This document shows positions 1,124 to 35,529 of a DNA stretch of 64,000 bases, piece after piece. Position 1 is the stretch's first letter. The number at the start of each line of letters is the position of its first letter. A model generated the notes under the pieces. The model ran no database searches, was not told where the DNA came from, and saw nothing but the letters and a program-made list of their open reading frames with translations. This DNA is from Aliarcobacter lanthieri (GTDB taxonomy: Bacteria; Campylobacterota; Campylobacteria; Campylobacterales; Arcobacteraceae), in NCBI RefSeq assembly GCF_013201625.1, contig NZ_CP053839.1, forward strand, positions 1,178,001-1,242,000. Direction: 5' to 3'. A program made the position numbers and the translations under genes.

Positions 1124-1755
1124 AAATTACCTTTCTTTGCATAAAAATTAAATATTGGAAAATCTCCATAATCTCTTTTATAAATAAAAACTCTTTCATA
1201 TAAGAATTTAATAAATCCTACTTTTAAAGATATTTTTTCTAATTCCTCTTGTGTAAATCCAAAGTGATAAACTCCAGTATTATTGTGTTTTTTATGAAAA
1301 GTTCCATCTTCTTTTTCTAAATCATTTACACAAAGATAGCCACCTTTTCTCAAAGCTTTAAAGCTCTTTTCAAAAAATATTTCAAGATTTTCTATATGGT
1401 GAAGAGACATAGAAATAACTATTAAATCAAAACTATTTTCTTCCAAATTATCATTTGAAATATCATGTATTTGAGCCTTTATATTTAATAAGTTTTTATC
1501 TTTTGCTTTTTTATTAAACTCTTCTACCATTCCAGTTGAACTATCAAGACCTAAAACTTCATTTGAACTATTTACTAAATCAAAAGCTATTAGTCCTGTT
1601 CCACAACCATAATCGAGTATATTCTTTATTTTTGAAAAATCTATAGTATCTTTTAGATGTTTTAAACAAGCTTCGCTTTTATCAAGACTTATTTGTTTCT
1701 TATCCCAGTCTTTTGCTCTTTCATCAAATCTACTCAAAATCTTATCCTTAAACAA
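1120..1755 (-). CDS. Class I SAM-dependent methyltransferase
   Basis: A 211-residue Rossmann-type methyltransferase. The SAM-binding motif DYGCGTG is at about 48-54, and the later LIVISMSLHHIEN segment is the usual motif IV region. The C-terminal part (GFTQEELEKISLKVGF) matches small-molecule methyltransferases of the Methyltransf_11/25 type. The substrate cannot be read from the sequence. It is the first gene of a two-gene minus-strand unit with aroE, overlapping it by ATGA-type 4-bp coupling; this pairing does not by itself tie it to shikimate metabolism. Confidence 0.8.
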   Translation of the reverse strand: MFKDKILSRFDERAKDWDKKQISLDKSEACLKHLKDTIDFSKIKNILDYGCGTGLIAFDLVNSSNEVLGLDSSTGMVEEFNKKAKDKNLLNIKAQIHDISNDNLEENSFDLIVISMSLHHIENLEIFFEKSFKALRKGGYLCVNDLEKEDGTFHKKHNNTGVYHFGFTQEELEKISLKVGFIKFLYERVFIYKRDYGDFPIFNFYAKKGNL

Positions 1756-14630: not shown

Positions 14631-15314
14631 ATGAAAAGAATTGATGCATATTTATCAAGTTTGGGATATTGTTCACGAAGTGAAGCAAAGAAATTTTTAA
14701 AGATGAATGAAGTTTGTATAAATGAAAATAGGGTTTTTAATACTTCATTAAAAGGAAATCATAAAGATATTACAGTAAATGGTGAAAAATTAGATGATGA
14801 AAAACTACTTATTTTACTTCATAAACCAAATGGGTATATTTGTTCTCACAATGATTCTGGAAAATTAATATATTCACTTCTACCACAAAGATGGCAAAAT
14901 AGAAATCCGAAAATATCGACTATTGGAAGATTAGATATTGATACAACAGGAGCTATTTTATTAACAGATGATGGAGAGTTGAATCATAAATTATCAAGTC
15001 CAAAAAATAGTATTTCAAAAATATATGAAGCAACTTTAGAAAATCCTTTAAGTTCTGATATTATAGATATTTTTTCAAGTGGAGAGATAATTTTAAAAGG
15101 AGAAGAAAAACCTTTAAAAGCAGCAAAATTAGATATTTTAAATCAAAATTTAGCAAGATTAGAGATAGTAGAGGGAAAATATCATCAGGTAAAAAGAATG
15201 TTTGCTTATGTTGGAAATAAAGTTTTAAAACTTCATAGAGTAAGTTTTGATAATTTTAAAATTGATGATTTAAAAGAGGGTGAATATAAGCTAATTCCTA
15301 TTAAAAGAATTTAG
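14631..15314 (+). CDS. RsuA-family rRNA pseudouridine synthase
   Basis: 227 residues: an N-terminal S4 RNA-binding domain (about 1-48: RIDAYLSSLGYCSRSEAKKF) followed by the RsuA/RluB/E/F catalytic domain with GRLDIDTTGAILLTDDGEL at about 103-121, whose first Asp is the catalytic nucleophile. The presence of S4 and the short catalytic domain suggest RsuA (16S U516) rather than RluE/F, but the exact uridine is not certain. ATG is preceded by AAAGGAAAAAG. Confidence 0.88.
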   Translation: MKRIDAYLSSLGYCSRSEAKKFLKMNEVCINENRVFNTSLKGNHKDITVNGEKLDDEKLLILLHKPNGYICSHNDSGKLIYSLLPQRWQNRNPKISTIGRLDIDTTGAILLTDDGELNHKLSSPKNSISKIYEATLENPLSSDIIDIFSSGEIILKGEEKPLKAAKLDILNQNLARLEIVEGKYHQVKRMFAYVGNKVLKLHRVSFDNFKIDDLKEGEYKLIPIKRI

Positions 15315-15924
15315 CTTTTATTTTGTTTTCTAGTTCATAAACTGTTTCAATAGCTTCATCTATATAATTAGAAAATCCCCAATTTACTAATAGAGAATCA
15401 ACTCCAGCATTTGTTGCTGCCATAATATCTTTTTTAGAATCTCCAATTAATTGAGCATTTTCTTTTTTTATATTATGAATATCTAAAATTTTATTTATCA
15501 TATCTGGATTTGGTTTTGGTTTTTCAACATCATTGTATCCCAATATAGAAGAGAAATAGTGATTTATTTCAAGATGATTTAACATCTTATTTGCATAAAC
15601 TGAATTTGCATTTGTTGCAACTGCAAACTTAAATTCATTTTTTAGATTATCTAAAAGATTTTTTATTCCATCATATAATACCAAATCAGTTAAACAATGT
15701 TTGTTGTAATAATCCTTAAAAAGTTCTTCTTGATTTTTTGTAAATTCTTTTGTTCCATAAAAGAATTCAGCACTATTTATATTTGGATCATTCACATTTT
15801 CTAAAATATAATTCCTTGGCATTGGCTCAAAACCTAGATTTTCTCTTACATAATTTACTGTATTTGCAATAGCATATCCACTATCAACAAGTGTTCCATC
15901 CATATCAAAAATAATTAATTTCAT
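15301..15924 (-). CDS. HAD-family phosphatase (phosphoglycolate phosphatase-like)
   Basis: 207 residues. HAD motif I is FDMDGTLVDSG (5-15; nucleophile Asp7), motif II is VATNANS, motif III includes KPKPNP and motif IV is LIGDSKKD. The helical cap between motifs I and II is of subclass I, as in Gph and PGMB. Substrate undetermined. Its end overlaps the convergent rsuA-like gene by 14 bp. Confidence 0.85.
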   Translation of the reverse strand: MKLIIFDMDGTLVDSGYAIANTVNYVRENLGFEPMPRNYILENVNDPNINSAEFFYGTKEFTKNQEELFKDYYNKHCLTDLVLYDGIKNLLDNLKNEFKFAVATNANSVYANKMLNHLEINHYFSSILGYNDVEKPKPNPDMINKILDIHNIKKENAQLIGDSKKDIMAATNAGVDSLLVNWGFSNYIDEAIETVYELENKIKAKFF

Positions 15925-16038
15925 AAAATTGTCCTAAAATATTTAATAAAACATTATAATATTTATATGATAAACAGAAAGTTAAAAATATTTTCGTAAA
16001 ATAGGACAAATTTTATCTTATTTTAATATTAGGAGTAT

Positions 16039-16044
16039 TATAAT
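16039..16044 (+). promoter_or_regulatory. -10 box of the sRNA/leader promoter
   Basis: A perfect TATAAT lies 7 nt upstream of the perfect hairpin starting at 16051. The upstream sequence is AT-rich with no clear -35, as is usual for sigma-70 promoters of Campylobacterota. It places transcription start at about 16050-16052. Confidence 0.6.
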
Positions 16045-16050
16045 TCTTTC

Positions 16051-16176
16051 ATAGGATATTTGTATTGAATCCTCCTACTACTAAATACAATATTTTTTAG
16101 TATCCTATACTTTTTTTGAAATGAATTGAATAATATATCAGGCTTTACAGTTTTTCCCTCTGTAAAGCCTTTTTTT
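16051..16176 (+). ncRNA. Candidate small RNA (or structured leader) with CCTCCT loop and own terminator
   Basis: Begins just after a TATAAT box. ATAGGATA (16051-16058) pairs with TATCCTAT (16101-16108); inside it TTGTATT (16060-16066) pairs with AATACAA (16084-16090), exposing a 17-nt loop containing TCCTCCT (16070-16076), an anti-Shine-Dalgarno sequence. After a short A/T-rich linker comes a strong terminator (16141-16176) whose loop is TTTTTCCCT. No ORF of note is inside. About 125 nt with two pyrimidine loops resembles Helicobacter RepG-type sRNAs in style. Because a plus-strand operon starts 55 nt after the terminator, a transcription attenuator is the other possibility, but no alternative antiterminator pairing was found. 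Confidence 0.6.
16141..16176 (+). terminator. Strong intrinsic terminator of the candidate sRNA
   Basis: GGCTTTACAG (16141-16150) pairs perfectly with CTGTAAAGCC (16160-16169), loop TTTTTCCCT, followed by seven T (16170-16176). It does not follow any protein gene on the plus strand, which is the main reason to propose a non-coding transcript upstream. Confidence 0.88.
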
Positions 16177-16230
16177 ATGCCAAAATTTATATAATCACAG
16201 ATTATTATTTACTTTAGATTGGTTTATATT

Positions 16231-16956
16231 ATGGAAACTTTTAGTTTAATATCAATTATTAGCATTGCAGTGTTTGGTTCTTTTGGTCACTGTATTGGTA
16301 TGTGTGGTGGAATTGTTGTTGCATACTCTAGTTCAAAAATAAAAGATGAATATACAAAATTAAGACAAATTATTGCACATTTAATGTATGGATTTGGAAG
16401 AGTTACTTCTTATTCTATATTAGGTGCTATTTTTGGTTTTCTAGGTTCTGTTATCGCATTTACAGCTATGACAAAAGGAATTTTATTTTTTATAACTGGA
16501 ATAATACTTGTATTAATAGGATTTTCACTTTTAGGAAAACTAAAATTTCTTACGAAAGTTGAACACTCTTTTTCAAAATCTAAAGCTTATCAAAAAATAT
16601 TTAGACAAGTTGTATCTAGTGATTCATTTTTTAGTTTTTATTTTGTAGGAATTTTAAATGGATTTTTACCATGTGGATTTGTATATGTTTTTGCTATAAC
16701 TGCTGCTAGTACAGCTAATGTTTTAGAAGGTGCTTTTGTTATGTTTATTTTTGGACTTTGCACAATTCCAGCTTTATTTGTATTGGGTTTTTTTATTGGA
16801 GTCTTTAAACAATCAAAATTAAGAGATGTTTTTATGAAGTTAGCTTCTATTTTAGTAATAATTTTTGGACTTTTTACTATGTATAAAGGATTTGTATTTA
16901 TAGCAAGTCAAAATAATATGATGATAGAACACAATCATAATATAAATAATCATTAA
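16231..16956 (+). CDS. Sulfite exporter TauE/SafE-family (DsbD_2-type) membrane protein
   Basis: 241 residues with six to seven membrane helices and the two diagnostic motifs FGHCIGMCGG (N-terminal) and NGFLPCGFVYVF (middle), which define the COG2836/DsbD_2 group often linked to copper handling and cytochrome oxidase assembly. The C-terminus is His/Asn-rich (IEHNHNINNH), a possible metal site. An upstream TTG at 16219 would add four residues, but ATG 16231 is the simpler start. First gene of a plus-strand run into the btu-like genes, preceded by the candidate sRNA. Confidence 0.85.
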   Translation: METFSLISIISIAVFGSFGHCIGMCGGIVVAYSSSKIKDEYTKLRQIIAHLMYGFGRVTSYSILGAIFGFLGSVIAFTAMTKGILFFITGIILVLIGFSLLGKLKFLTKVEHSFSKSKAYQKIFRQVVSSDSFFSFYFVGILNGFLPCGFVYVFAITAASTANVLEGAFVMFIFGLCTIPALFVLGFFIGVFKQSKLRDVFMKLASILVIIFGLFTMYKGFVFIASQNNMMIEHNHNINNH

Positions 16957-16987
16957 GAGATTTACCATATTTTGTGAAGGAGGAAAA

Positions 16988-17170
16988 ATGTTTATTAATA
17001 CAAAGAAATATTTTAGTTTTTTTGGAATTTTATTTGCAACAGTAAGTAGAAAACTTTTAAGTAATTGCTGTACAATAGAATCTATTTTGAAAAAACAAGC
17101 AAAAATAACTAAAGAGTTATTAAAAAAACAACTCAAACCAATAAAACTTTATTTAACAAATAATATATAA
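16988..17170 (+). CDS. Small basic protein of unknown function (60 residues)
   Basis: Encoded after an excellent ribosome site (AAGGAGG at 16977-16983, ATG at 16988). The product is basic with a short hydrophobic N-terminal half (YFSFFGILFATVS) containing a Cys-Cys pair (SNCCTIES), then a Lys-rich helix. No family is recognised. It sits between the TauE/SafE-like gene and the BtuB-like receptor, 15 bp before the latter, so it is part of that operon. The strong ribosome site argues that it is translated. Confidence 0.6.
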   Translation: MFINTKKYFSFFGILFATVSRKLLSNCCTIESILKKQAKITKELLKKQLKPIKLYLTNNI

Positions 17171-17184
17171 ATATAGGAAAAAAT

Positions 17185-19011
17185 ATGAAAAATAAAATAT
17201 CTACAAGCTTAGTTGCAAGCTTTTTATTAGCAACAAATCTTTATTCAACAGACACTTTAGAAACAATAACTGTTACAAGTGTTACAAAATCAGAGCAAAA
17301 ATTAAAAGATGTTACTTCTAATGTTGATGTTATAACATCAGAAGATATTGAGGCTAGAAAATTTAAAACAGTTGCTGAAGCTTTACAAACTATTGCAGGT
17401 GTTCAAGTATCACAAAGTGGTGGAATAGGGCAACAAACATCAGTTTTTTTAAGAGGAATGGATTCTAAAAAAACTTTAGTTTTAGTGGATGGTATAAGAT
17501 ACAATGACCCAAGTGGAAATGGAGCAAACTTCGAACATTTAATGATAAATGATATTGAAAGAATTGAAGTTATAAAAGGTGCTCAAAGTAGTATTTGGGG
17601 AGCAGATGCAAGTGCTGGAGTTATAAATATTATTACAAAAAGTGCAAAAGATGGAACATATGGAAGTGCTAATATTGAGTATGGAAGATATGATACAACA
17701 ATAGCAAAAGCAAATATTTCGCATAAAAATAAGAATTTTGATGCAAATTTAGGTGTAACAAGAGTTGACACAAATGGTTTTTCAGCAATGTCACCCAAAA
17801 GTAGCGAAGCTAAAAAGTATGAAAAAGATAGCTATGAAAATACAACTGCCAATATAAAATTGGGTTATAATTTTAATGAAAACAATAGATTATCAACTTC
17901 TTATGAAATAATTGATACGAAAACAGATATTGATGGAAATGATTCTTTTTATAATCCAGATCCAAATAATACAGATAAAGCAAAAACAAAAACTCACTTA
18001 GCAAATCTTACTTATGAAAATAAAAATGATATTGCTCTTACAAAAGTATATGCGAACTATACAGATATTAAAAGAGAATATACAAGTAATACTCCTAAAT
18101 ATAAAGGTACTATAAAAGAGTATGGAGTAAATACAAGTATAGATTATTTAGATAACTCTTCAAATCTTGTTTTAGGTGCTGATTATAAAAAGTTTGAAAA
18201 TAAAGCAAATATAGATAAAAATTATGACAATAAAGGAATTTTTATCTCAAATACAAATAAATTTTTTGATAATAAAACAATATTCACTCAATCTTTAAGA
18301 TATGATAAATATAGCGATTTTGAAAATAAAACAACAGGAAAAGTTGGAGTTAAACAATATATTATTGATGATTTAAATATTAGTGCAAACTATGGAACTG
18401 GATATAATATTCCAAGTACTTTTGAATTGTACGATGCTTCTAGTGGAAATATAAATTTAAAACCAGAAAAAACAAAATCTTATGATGTTGGAGTTGAATA
18501 TAAAGGTTTTTCTGCAACTTATTTTAATTCAAAAATAGAGAATTTAATAAATTGGGAATGGACAGGACCAGGAGCATATGATGGGAAAAATAAGAATATA
18601 GAAGGAAAGAGTAGATTTAAAGGTATTGAACTTGCATATAAAAACTCTATTACAGAAGATATTTTCCTTAATTTAAACTATACAAGACTTAGTGCAAAAA
18701 ATAAAGATGAACAAGAGTTTGGAAGAAGACCAAAAAATAAAGTTGGTTTTGGAGTTGATTATTATGGTTTAAAAGATTTTCATTTTAATATAAATGGTGA
18801 ATATATTGGAGAAAGATATGACTTTAATAATAAACAAGGTGCAAAGACTGGAAACTACACAATTTGGAATGCAGTCGTTGATTATGATATTAGCAAAAAT
18901 TTCTCGACTTATGTAAAACTTGATAATATTTTTAACAAAGATTACCAAATTGTTGATGGTTATTCAACAAGCCAAAGAGCAGCTTATATTGGATTAAAGG
19001 CTAGTTTCTAA
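17185..19011 (+). CDS. BtuB-like TonB-dependent outer membrane receptor
   Basis: 608 residues, the size of BtuB. Signal peptide at 1-21, TonB box DTLETITVTSVTKSE, plug domain about 38-150 (FLRGMDSKKTLVLVDGIRYND; RIEVIKGAQSSIWGADASAGVINIIT) and a barrel ending in ...AAYIGLKASF. Directly followed (1-bp gap) by periplasmic binding protein, ATPase and permease genes in the BtuF/BtuD/BtuC order, so cobalamin or a related corrinoid is the first guess; a metal chelate or heme is the alternative. No cobalamin riboswitch is seen upstream. Confidence 0.82.
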   Translation: MKNKISTSLVASFLLATNLYSTDTLETITVTSVTKSEQKLKDVTSNVDVITSEDIEARKFKTVAEALQTIAGVQVSQSGGIGQQTSVFLRGMDSKKTLVLVDGIRYNDPSGNGANFEHLMINDIERIEVIKGAQSSIWGADASAGVINIITKSAKDGTYGSANIEYGRYDTTIAKANISHKNKNFDANLGVTRVDTNGFSAMSPKSSEAKKYEKDSYENTTANIKLGYNFNENNRLSTSYEIIDTKTDIDGNDSFYNPDPNNTDKAKTKTHLANLTYENKNDIALTKVYANYTDIKREYTSNTPKYKGTIKEYGVNTSIDYLDNSSNLVLGADYKKFENKANIDKNYDNKGIFISNTNKFFDNKTIFTQSLRYDKYSDFENKTTGKVGVKQYIIDDLNISANYGTGYNIPSTFELYDASSGNINLKPEKTKSYDVGVEYKGFSATYFNSKIENLINWEWTGPGAYDGKNKNIEGKSRFKGIELAYKNSITEDIFLNLNYTRLSAKNKDEQEFGRRPKNKVGFGVDYYGLKDFHFNINGEYIGERYDFNNKQGAKTGNYTIWNAVVDYDISKNFSTYVKLDNIFNKDYQIVDGYSTSQRAAYIGLKASF

Positions 19012-19012
19012 T

Positions 19013-19846
19013 ATGAAAAAGCTACTTTTATCTTTTTTATTTTGTACTTATTTATTATCTTATGAAAGAATTATTACATTAAGTCCATCAGTAAATGAGA
19101 TAGTTTATGCCCTAGATTTAGGGTATAAAGTAGTTGCAAATACAGAGTTTTGTGATTATCCACAAGAGTCAAAAAAAGTACAAAAAGTTGGTGGATATGG
19201 TAATGTTTCACTAGAAAAAGTAGTTTTATTAAATCCTGATATTATAATAACTCACGATTTTGATGAAAAATTAAACAAAAACCTAGAAAAATTAGGCTTT
19301 GAACTTAAAGTTTATAGTACAAAAACTATGAAAGATATACAATATACTATCACAGATTTAGGAGAAGTTTTTGAACAGAAAAAAAAAGCAAATGAATTAA
19401 ACAACAAAATAAATGAAGCTTTGAACTCTTTAAAAAATATAGTAACAAATCAAAAAATATTAATCGTAATAAGCCCACAAAATACACTATCAAATCAGAT
19501 TTATGTAGCTGGAAACTATGTATATTTTGAAGATATCATAAAGCAAAGCCAAAATGAAAATGCATATTTTTCAAACTCAAAAGCTCAACCAGTTTTAAAC
19601 ACAGAGAAGATAATCAAATTAAATCCAGATATAATAGTTTTATTATCACCATTTTTAGAAGATAAAAAAAATGAAGAAGAAAAGATAATCAAACTTTGGG
19701 AAACTTTACCAATAAATGCAAGTAAAAATAAAAATATCTATTCAATTTCAAAGGAATATGCTGGTATCCCAAGTAATAGAGTAGAGTATTTTATAGAAGA
19801 TTTTAAAAAGATATTAGAAGATGTTAGAGATAAGAAATTACAATAA
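19013..19846 (+). CDS. BtuF/FecB-like periplasmic substrate-binding protein
   Basis: 277 residues with a signal peptide (MKKLLLSFLFCTYLLS) and the class III binding protein fold: RIITLSPSVNEIVYALDLG at the first lobe and VLLNPDIIITHDFDEKLN, then a long helix and second lobe with IKLNPDIIVLLSPF. RIITLSPSxTEI-type opening is typical of BtuF and of vitamin B12/siderophore binding proteins. Overlaps the ATPase gene by 26 bp. It delivers ligand brought in by the adjacent receptor to the ABC permease. Confidence 0.85.
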   Translation: MKKLLLSFLFCTYLLSYERIITLSPSVNEIVYALDLGYKVVANTEFCDYPQESKKVQKVGGYGNVSLEKVVLLNPDIIITHDFDEKLNKNLEKLGFELKVYSTKTMKDIQYTITDLGEVFEQKKKANELNNKINEALNSLKNIVTNQKILIVISPQNTLSNQIYVAGNYVYFEDIIKQSQNENAYFSNSKAQPVLNTEKIIKLNPDIIVLLSPFLEDKKNEEEKIIKLWETLPINASKNKNIYSISKEYAGIPSNRVEYFIEDFKKILEDVRDKKLQ

Positions 19847-20519
19847 CTTTATATTAAAAGATATATCATTTTTTCTAAATAATGATGAAAATCTATTAAT
19901 TTTAGGAGAAAATGGAGCTGGAAAATCAACTTTAGCAAAAGTTTTATCAAATTTAATAGCAAATGATAATGTAAAAATATTTGAAGAAAATTTATCAAAA
20001 ATTTCAAATCAAAAAAGAGTAGAGTATATAAACTATATTCCACCAAAATTTGAGATTTTTGATGAATTTATGACTGTTTTAGAGTTTTTACAAATATCTT
20101 TTATAGATAATATTGATGAAAATAAGTTAAAAGAAGTTTTAAACCTATTAAAACTAGATAAATTTATAAAAAAATCTTGTAAAAATTTAAGTTCTGGAGA
20201 AAAACAACTTTTATTAATAGCTAGTGCTATTTTACACAATGCAAAAATTACAATTTTTGATGAATTAACAGCAAATTTAGATATAAATAGAATAAAAGAT
20301 ATTTTTAATATACTTAACTCAAATTTATTAAATCAAAAGATTATTATAACTCATAATCTTGATTTTGCTTTTGCACTTAAATACAAAGTTTTATTTTTAA
20401 AAGATGGTAAAATAGAGTTTTATGGTACAAATAAAGAATTTTTTGAAGATACAAATCTAGAAAAAATTTATAATAAAACTATAAAAAAAGTTCAAAATCA
20501 TATAGTAGTAGATTTATGA
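19821..20519 (+). CDS. ABC transporter ATPase, BtuD/FecE-like
   Basis: 232 residues. Walker A GENGAGKST at about 30-38, signature LSSGEKQLLLIASAIL at about 122-137, Walker B ITIFDELTANLD and switch His in ITHNLDFAF. Signature and length fit the FecCD-type importers. The catalytic Glu is seen in FDELTAN. It overlaps the binding-protein gene upstream and the permease gene downstream (ATGA at 20516-20519), so the three form one transporter. Confidence 0.88.
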   Translation: MLEIRNYNNFILKDISFFLNNDENLLILGENGAGKSTLAKVLSNLIANDNVKIFEENLSKISNQKRVEYINYIPPKFEIFDEFMTVLEFLQISFIDNIDENKLKEVLNLLKLDKFIKKSCKNLSSGEKQLLLIASAILHNAKITIFDELTANLDINRIKDIFNILNSNLLNQKIIITHNLDFAFALKYKVLFLKDGKIEFYGTNKEFFEDTNLEKIYNKTIKKVQNHIVVDL

Positions 20520-21475
20520 AAATTACATTATATATTTTTTCATTTATAATCATTTTATTATCTCCATTTTTAGGAGATATCTCTTTAGATTTTCAAAATA
20601 TAGTTGATTTTACTTCTAAAGAAAATATTGTTTTTTGGGATTTAAGAGTTCCAAGAATAATTTTAGCTTTTTTTGTTGGTGGAATTTTAGCTTTAAGTGG
20701 ACTTATATTTCAATCAATATATAAAAATGAACTTATTACTCCATATACTTTAGGTATAGCAAGTGGAACTACGCTTTTTACAGCAATTACAATAGTTTTT
20801 TTACCTTTTATTCCTATTTTTATAGGCTCTATTTTTGGCTCTATTTTTACTATAGTGATTCTATTTTCTATATCAAAAGTTTTAAATAATAGAATAATTT
20901 CTAACTCTACAAATTCTATTTTACTTATAGGAATTGCATTATCATATTTTTATGGTTCAGCTTTAATGATGACTTTTTATATGAGTAATTTACAAGAAAA
21001 TTACTCAATAGTAAGATTTACTTTAGGAAGCTTAGATATTGTAGGTTTTAAAGATAGTTTTATCGTAATGTTTGTTGGTTTAATTTTTATATTTTTTATA
21101 AAATATTTTAAAAAAAGTATAAAATTAATACTTATTTCAAATGAAACAGCATTTTTAAAAGGTTTAAATGTAGATAAAACTAATTTAATATTACTTACTT
21201 TTGTATCTTTATGTATTGGAATAACTATTAGCTTTACTGGACCAATTGGTTTTATTGGACTTGTAATTCCACATATTGTAAAGTTAATTTATAAAAAAAG
21301 TGCAGAGAAATTGTTTTTTCCTACTTTTTTCTTTGGTGGTGTTTTTTTATTATTTTGTGATTTAATTTCAAGATTAATATCAACATCTTCTGTTATTCCA
21401 ATAGGAGTAGTTACCGCTTTTATCGGCGCTCCATTCTTTGTTTATTTACTAATTAAAAAAAATAAATTACTATAA
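20516..21475 (+). CDS. ABC transporter permease, BtuC/FecCD family
   Basis: 319 residues, about ten membrane helices. Family landmarks are DLRVPRIILAFFVGGILALSG (first third), TPYTLGIASGTTLFTA, and the ATPase-contacting segment GPIGFIGLVIPHIVKLIYKK near residue 240. Ends with the usual PIGVVTAFIGAPFFVYLL. It forms the membrane channel for the ATPase just upstream. Substrate is the same unresolved corrinoid/chelate as for the receptor. Confidence 0.88.
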   Translation: MKITLYIFSFIIILLSPFLGDISLDFQNIVDFTSKENIVFWDLRVPRIILAFFVGGILALSGLIFQSIYKNELITPYTLGIASGTTLFTAITIVFLPFIPIFIGSIFGSIFTIVILFSISKVLNNRIISNSTNSILLIGIALSYFYGSALMMTFYMSNLQENYSIVRFTLGSLDIVGFKDSFIVMFVGLIFIFFIKYFKKSIKLILISNETAFLKGLNVDKTNLILLTFVSLCIGITISFTGPIGFIGLVIPHIVKLIYKKSAEKLFFPTFFFGGVFLLFCDLISRLISTSSVIPIGVVTAFIGAPFFVYLLIKKNKLL

Positions 21476-35351: not shown

Positions 35352-35490
35352 TAATCTTCTCTTTCATCCAGACTATAACTGTTGGTTTTGGATTCTCACC
35401 AAATCTGCTTGACCCTTATAAATATAAGGCGCTCGTGGACTTCTATAAAATAGTTACCACCAGTAAGGAATTTCACCTTGCCCTGAGAAA
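35352..35490 (-). promoter_or_regulatory. FMN riboswitch (RFN element)
   Basis: Read on the minus strand from 35490: CTCAGGGCAAGGTGAAATTC, then CCTTACTGGTGG, a variable hairpin with GTCCACGAGCGCC, then GTCAAGCAGATTTGGTGAGA, ATCCAAAACCAACAG and TTATAGTCTGGATGAAAGAG. These are the conserved strands of the RFN element in order. It lies directly upstream of ribB on the same strand. Confidence 0.93.
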
Positions 35491-35529
35491 ATAAATTTGC
35501 TGGAATTGTAACTAAGTATTACTTAATTA

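Follow-up and report, generated by a model that had tools for sequence, protein, structure and literature searches.

IsrR of Staphylococcus aureus works without Hfq, and so does RepG of Helicobacter pylori, which uses a CU-rich loop and comes from the same phylum as the Arcobacteraceae small RNA (sRNA) presented here. To our knowledge, Hfq is absent from this class of bacteria, and we know of no RyhB in Campylobacterota. RyhB itself requires Hfq (PMC11257911). IsrR (S596/Tsr25) has C-rich regions that pair with the ribosome sites of mRNAs for iron enzymes, brings about an iron-sparing response, and has a predicted Fur box (PMC11257911). The nearest described RNA within the phylum is CjNC140 of Campylobacter jejuni, which is reported to have a CU-rich first stem-loop and a terminator stem-loop, a proposed role as a functional homologue of RyhB linked to iron, conservation in thermotolerant Campylobacter, and p19 (activation) and CjNC110 as demonstrated partners (PMC10470494); we liken the two RNAs by this description of their stem-loops. 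A computational survey of the intergenic regions of Arcobacter sp. L exists (PMC6429828). Its supplementary lists aside, where an unnamed earlier sighting of the region is possible, no Arcobacter regulatory sRNA was found in the literature searched, and the gene described below is apparently undescribed.

The stretch of DNA analysed here comprises 64,000 nucleotides (nt) of the Aliarcobacter lanthieri genome and is termed the window herein. The RNA predicted from it would resemble RyhB in being short, in having an operator-like promoter, and in lowering the synthesis of iron proteins by masking ribosome sites. The most similar mode of action is that of IsrR, a likeness of mode and not of homology. 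Both have a C-rich, single-stranded seed complementary to the Shine-Dalgarno sequence, which in the Arcobacteraceae sRNA is mostly unpaired in the predicted ensembles and conserved in the alignment, but IsrR has three such regions, in contrast to one main CCUCCUAC loop here, comes from a different phylum, and has no known sequence relation to the RNA described here. No Rfam family matched the element at the gathering threshold when the whole window was scanned, and over positions 15900-16300 only chance matches appeared at E values of up to 10. The RyhB covariance model (RF00057) likewise gave no match in the window at the gathering threshold, nor at E values of up to 10 over 15900-16300. Elsewhere in the window (35352-35494, minus strand), the same scan recorded an FMN riboswitch with 125 bits, far over its gathering score.

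Parts and predicted fold of the sRNA

The features of the locus are collected in Table 1. The initial annotation had read this protein-free gap as a candidate small RNA with an anti-Shine-Dalgarno loop, composed of a TATAAT box, a two-part hairpin exposing TCCTCCT in a 17-nt loop, and a terminator with seven T, and each of these parts is present. In the predicted fold, the hairpin consists of an outer stem of 9 bp (16051-16059 with 16100-16108) and an inner stem of 7 bp (16060-16066 with 16084-16090) that close an apical loop of 17 nt (16067-16083) containing TCCTCCTAC. Two details differ from the earlier description: the terminator stem is perfect over 11 bp rather than 10 bp, and conservation of the seed extends beyond TCCTCCT. 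The terminator escaped our terminator scan because its 9-nt loop exceeds the maximum of 8 allowed there. As also proposed initially, it serves no upstream plus-strand gene, because the upstream neighbour, a gene for a HAD phosphatase, lies on the minus strand. The minimum free energy of 16051-16176 is −27.1 kcal/mol, compared with −14.2 ± 2.7 kcal/mol for 200 dinucleotide shuffles (z = −4.75; 0/200).

TABLE 1 Features of the sRNA locus and its neighbours (window coordinates)
Feature	Position	Strand	Basis or remarks
HAD phosphatase gene, upstream neighbour	15301-15924	−	
Operator-like palindrome ATAGGACAAATTTTATCTTAT	16001-16021	+	7-1-7 geometry GGAYAAA-T-TTTATCY; overlaps −35 region
−10 box TATAAT of the sRNA promoter	16039-16044	+	Sequence; position kept in genus alignment
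Predicted sRNA, ~126 nt	16051-16176	+	Inferred start 7 nt past −10 box; end at T run
Two-part hairpin	16051-16108	+	Fold; helix swapped for unrelated complementary sequences in distant genus
Loop seed TCCTCCTAC, single-stranded	16070-16078	+	Complementary to GTAGGAGGA; mostly unpaired in predicted ensembles
Intrinsic terminator	16140-16176	+	11-bp perfect stem (16140-16170), 9-nt loop TTTTTCCCT, seven T (16170-16176)
TATAAT, likely separate −10 box of downstream operon	16190-16195	+	−10-like hexamers in same gap elsewhere
DsbD_2-family membrane protein gene, first of downstream operon	16231-16956	+	PF13386, E = 4e-50; synteny
Small protein gene, 60 amino acids (aa), conserved	16988-17170	+	Ribosome site AAGGAGGA, without seed extension

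Conservation and covariation in Arcobacteraceae

The conservation search in Aliarcobacter suggested by the initial annotation was positive. Each of the 31 genus genomes has some match to the 301-base region around the element, and 29 hold the complete element, the other two being fragmented assemblies (G016, with 210 contigs, and G017, 54% complete). A covariance model (R1) built on an alignment of 29 sequences from this one genus (A1) recovers the element from 47 of 104 genomes of the family, distributed over five genera (29 genomes of the window's own genus and 18 in four other Arcobacteraceae genera). A second model (R2), built on a wider alignment and combined with inspection of its matches, added four members from genus g9. 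Weak R2 matches in six genomes (G041, G056, G058, G059, G076, and G082) lack a CTCCTAC or CCTCCTA loop there and were discarded, and the loci of the downstream operon in Sulfurimonas, Sulfurovum, Sulfurospirillum, and Malaciobacter yielded no copy of the sRNA.

In A1, 98.5% of the paired cells hold, and seven pairs change on both sides, whereas slid controls, in which the partner was moved by 1 to 3 columns, gave 30 to 49% paired cells and 0 to 2 double changes. The terminator contributes compensatory changes in six of its nine modelled pairs, with 100% of the cells paired. The outer helix is nearly invariant in sequence within the window's own genus, which is more than a mere scaffold requires. 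In genus g9 (for example, L139 to L142), the helix AUAGGAUAU/GUAUCCUAU is swapped for GAAAAUUAAAA/UUUUAAUUUUC, while CCUCCUACUAC is retained in the loop and a terminator at the end. Across the aligned members, CCTCCTAC is found in 40 of 44 and is largely unpaired in most of the predicted ensembles. Since the apical helix of the distant genus is wholly different around the same CCTCCTAC loop, the loop is the selected part, and its persistence in an unpaired state while the helix changes indicates that selection holds it as a displayed single strand. The proposed small RNA with an anti-Shine-Dalgarno loop is strongly supported by its conservation, its structure, and what seems to be a transcription unit of its own; the gap almost certainly contains a real small RNA gene of a new sRNA family.

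A conserved palindrome over the promoter

The operator-like palindrome, which the initial annotation had overlooked, is matched nowhere else in the window when up to 3 mismatches are allowed (0.05 sites expected), and it is kept upstream of the sRNA in most genomes of the genus; in several sRNA members, chiefly of other genera, the box is weak or absent. In five genomes (G007, G008, G009, G017, and G024), the same palindrome occupies the gap separating the divergent sufB and nifU genes, and it is nearly perfect in G024 (AAATAGGACAAATTTTATCCTATTT). At this divergent promoter, it was seen as AAATAGGAYAAATTTTATCYTAWTT in L452 (1571-1589), L453, L454, L456, and L030. A variant of the box, AAAATAGGATATTTTTTATCTTATATT, stands upstream of a diheme peroxidase gene in G025 (L457, about 1540-1600, minus strand). 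The palindrome at sufB/nifU and at the sRNA is a candidate operator of an Fe-S/iron regulon of Aliarcobacter. An operator common to the sRNA and to Fe-S assembly genes suggests a sensor of iron or redox state, and the 7-1-7 geometry resembles that of Fur-family operators. We infer that the sRNA is controlled by an iron- or redox-sensing regulator.

Other genera have direct repeats, TTTAACA-N5-TTAACA, near the −35 region (L127 to L144), which replace or join the palindrome. These repeats look like a response-regulator site, and, as they lie nearer the promoter, a second regulator is likely in those genera.

Candidate targets of the loop

Candidate targets in the A. lanthieri genome were picked by a search for TAGGAGG followed by ATG at 3 to 11 bases, with AAGGAGG as the control pattern. 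At real genes, the pattern stands before nrfA, the gene for a SoxA-like c-type cytochrome, ccoN, a diheme peroxidase gene, rpsO, an M14-like gene, and a frame of 44 aa; it also matches five 16S rRNA genes and chance sites within reading frames. Four of the seven TAGGAGG genes encode heme proteins, versus none of the control genes (0/11, the control set numbering about 11 genes; Fisher P = 0.011 in this one genome). The suggestion that the loop could pair with strong ribosome sites elsewhere proved a productive lead: its duplexes reached −18.8 kcal/mol with the SoxA-like cytochrome, −17.7 kcal/mol with nrfA, −16.5 kcal/mol with ccoN, and −15.9 kcal/mol with the diheme peroxidase, compared with −10.3 to −15.3 kcal/mol for control sites and a median of −5.1 kcal/mol for 60 long frames of the window; as these energies were computed on sites chosen by pattern, they rank candidates and are not a test of enrichment. 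The small gene at 16988 had been put forward as a target on the strength of the AGGAGGA at 16978-16984. That motif exists, but the site reads AAGGAGGA, without the U-A extension of the seed, and its duplex (−12.7 kcal/mol) is no better than those of control AAGGAGG ribosome sites. It is thus a poorly supported target, and we rejected it as the prime one.

Within the genus, GTAGGAGG stands before the ATG of ccoN in 29 of the 31 genomes, the remaining two (G024 and G027) having CAGGAGG and TTAGGAGG there. Further GTAGGAGG sites that recur among the 31 genomes belong to the SoxA-like cytochrome (12 genomes), hydA of the NiFe hydrogenase (5), a 114-aa protein (4), and nosZ (3), and single sites precede genes for a cytochrome b561, a DHC diheme cytochrome, a hemerythrin-like protein (just under the Pfam cut-off), and, in one sister species, nrfA. 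The 114-aa protein (L175 and L200) was considered as a ferredoxin; this identity is unsupported by Pfam or NCBIfam, and the protein was therefore left out of the iron proteins. We also discarded nrfA as a universal target, since the gene occurs in 6 of the 31 genomes and the seed match in two sister species only. With 40 AAAGGAGG sites plus the control sites of the A. lanthieri genome as the control sample, Fe/Cu enzymes made up 8 of 18 gene families for GTAGGAGG versus 3 of about 26 (3/26) for AAAGGAGG (P = 0.017), and strictly iron proteins 6 of 18 (P = 0.084); the families were assigned from Pfam and NCBIfam matches and by eye, so that these P values are indicative only. Among genera, ccoN has TAGTAGGAGGA or GTAGGAGGA in five of five with the sRNA versus three of ten without a detected sRNA (P = 0.019, with kinship ignored). 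Those three (g2, g3, and g15) keep the extended site and may have a divergent, undetected copy of the sRNA; the other seven have TTTAGGAGGA, AAGGAGGA, or similar.

An sRNA that acts in trans through an anti-Shine-Dalgarno loop might also have a regulon that is not centred on iron and heme and might instead tune translation in general or serve in copper/respiratory control. Any strong ribosome site is complementary to the loop, and GTAGGAGG also precedes ribosomal and flagellar genes, the genes unrelated to iron being rplF, flgF, ybaB, and those for an M23 peptidase, a VgrG-like protein, and an ATP-grasp protein. Highly expressed genes often have a strong Shine-Dalgarno sequence, so that a need for strong translation could by itself explain GTAGGAGG at respiratory enzymes. 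The copper version draws on a NosL-like gene (by motif, with no Pfam match) that opens the downstream operon in many species and on nosZ as a candidate target. However, few heme proteins are found at the control sites (AAGGAGG and AAAGGAGG), each of the longest duplexes that we examined in the A. lanthieri genome involves a heme protein, and the box over the sRNA promoter is met again at Fe-S assembly genes; a regulon centred elsewhere appears unlikely to us. The anti-Shine-Dalgarno mode of action in trans is itself highly probable; that iron and heme respiratory enzymes form the main regulon is a reading towards which we lean with moderate confidence.

The sRNA and the downstream operon

The DsbD_2 gene is the constant downstream neighbour of the sRNA and is followed in its operon by the genes for the small protein, a TonB receptor, a binding protein, and an ABC transporter. 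The last three (window positions 17185-21475, plus strand; the transporter is of the FecCD type) are closest to vitamin B12/heme systems, below the curated cut-offs. A protein of 55 to 61 aa without a Pfam family is kept between the DsbD_2 and TonB receptor genes in several genera (window positions 16988-17170, plus strand; L012, L137, L139, and others). Most genomes of the genus have an additional gene of about 170 aa between the sRNA and the DsbD_2 gene; its product has a DCGM motif and is NosL-like by eye, without a Pfam match, and its presence varies within one genus (L003, 1742; L012, 1765; L015, 1785).

The element lies directly upstream of the DsbD_2/TonB operon in all genera that have it, even where the HAD gene sits elsewhere, and a hairpin followed by a terminator is also the layout of a riboswitch-like leader or attenuator acting in cis on that operon, with the terminator as its off state. 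Four observations speak against such a leader, which we regard as quite improbable: a further −10-like hexamer lies between the terminator and the next gene at 27 of 32 loci versus 16.9 expected from shuffles; the hairpin and the terminator fold independently and do not compete in the predicted folds, with no antiterminator seen; the distant genus tolerates another helix sequence but keeps the loop; and no Rfam riboswitch or aptamer matched, even at an E value of 10. With its own −10 box, its own terminator, and a second −10 box for the downstream operon, the sRNA looks like a stand-alone unit, a view also favoured by the NosL-like gene that separates it from the DsbD_2 gene in most genomes of the genus.

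Proposed mechanism

The gene structure, the conserved displayed seed, and its complementarity at conserved ribosome sites are read directly from the DNA; expression of the sRNA, repression by ribosome-site occlusion, and iron or redox control are proposals. In our model, the palindromic box over the −35 region is bound by a metal- or redox-sensing repressor, and the RNA of about 126 nt would be made once this protein dissociates. Its hairpin presents an invariant single-stranded UCCUCCUAC loop, which would mimic the anti-Shine-Dalgarno end of 16S rRNA, extended by UAC. The loop and the 3′ end of 16S rRNA have CCUCCU in common, so that the sRNA would compete directly with the 30S subunit, and the UAC extension would make the loop prefer GTAGGAGGA sites, with the best pairing at ribosome sites reading (A)GTAGGAGGA. 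Pairing would block translation of mRNAs for iron and heme (and some copper) respiratory enzymes, the chief target probably being ccoN, a subunit of the cbb3 oxidase, joined according to species by the SoxA-like diheme cytochrome, the NiFe hydrogenase, nosZ, or nrfA. Overall, the cell would spare iron or tune its respiration, in a response like that of RyhB or IsrR. Taken as a whole, an independent, trans-acting sRNA that represses iron and heme respiratory enzymes by masking their ribosome sites, under iron or redox control, is in our judgement the probable, though by no means assured, function.

The loop might instead titrate another RNA rather than bind mRNA ribosome sites, much as the CU-rich loop of CjNC140 pairs with the GA-rich loop of CjNC110 in C. 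jejuni (PMC10470494); no GA-rich partner sRNA is known in the bacteria considered here, and GTAGGAGGA, the extended complement, is repeatedly found at start codons, which leaves a sponge or partner RNA very improbable. Promoter-like matches are common in this sequence (41 found versus 38.9 expected), but a chance hairpin in an AT-rich gap is contradicted by the conservation, the covariation, and the z score and can practically be dismissed.

Going beyond the repressing sRNA that we favour, we suggest only tentatively that Arcobacteraceae may have evolved an iron-sparing sRNA independently of RyhB, PrrF, FsrA, and IsrR, possibly run by the regulator of Fe-S assembly, in which a decoy of the 16S anti-Shine-Dalgarno sequence with a UAC extension would select the mRNAs of respiratory metalloenzymes, above all that of the high-affinity oxidase. 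A helix that is free to change, combined with a fixed anti-Shine-Dalgarno loop, makes the sRNA a clean test case for an sRNA competing directly with the ribosome. It bears on the question of how iron is saved in Campylobacterota, in which no RyhB is known, and, if the proposed function is true, it would account for the way in which these bacteria match their oxidase and denitrification enzymes to the metal available.
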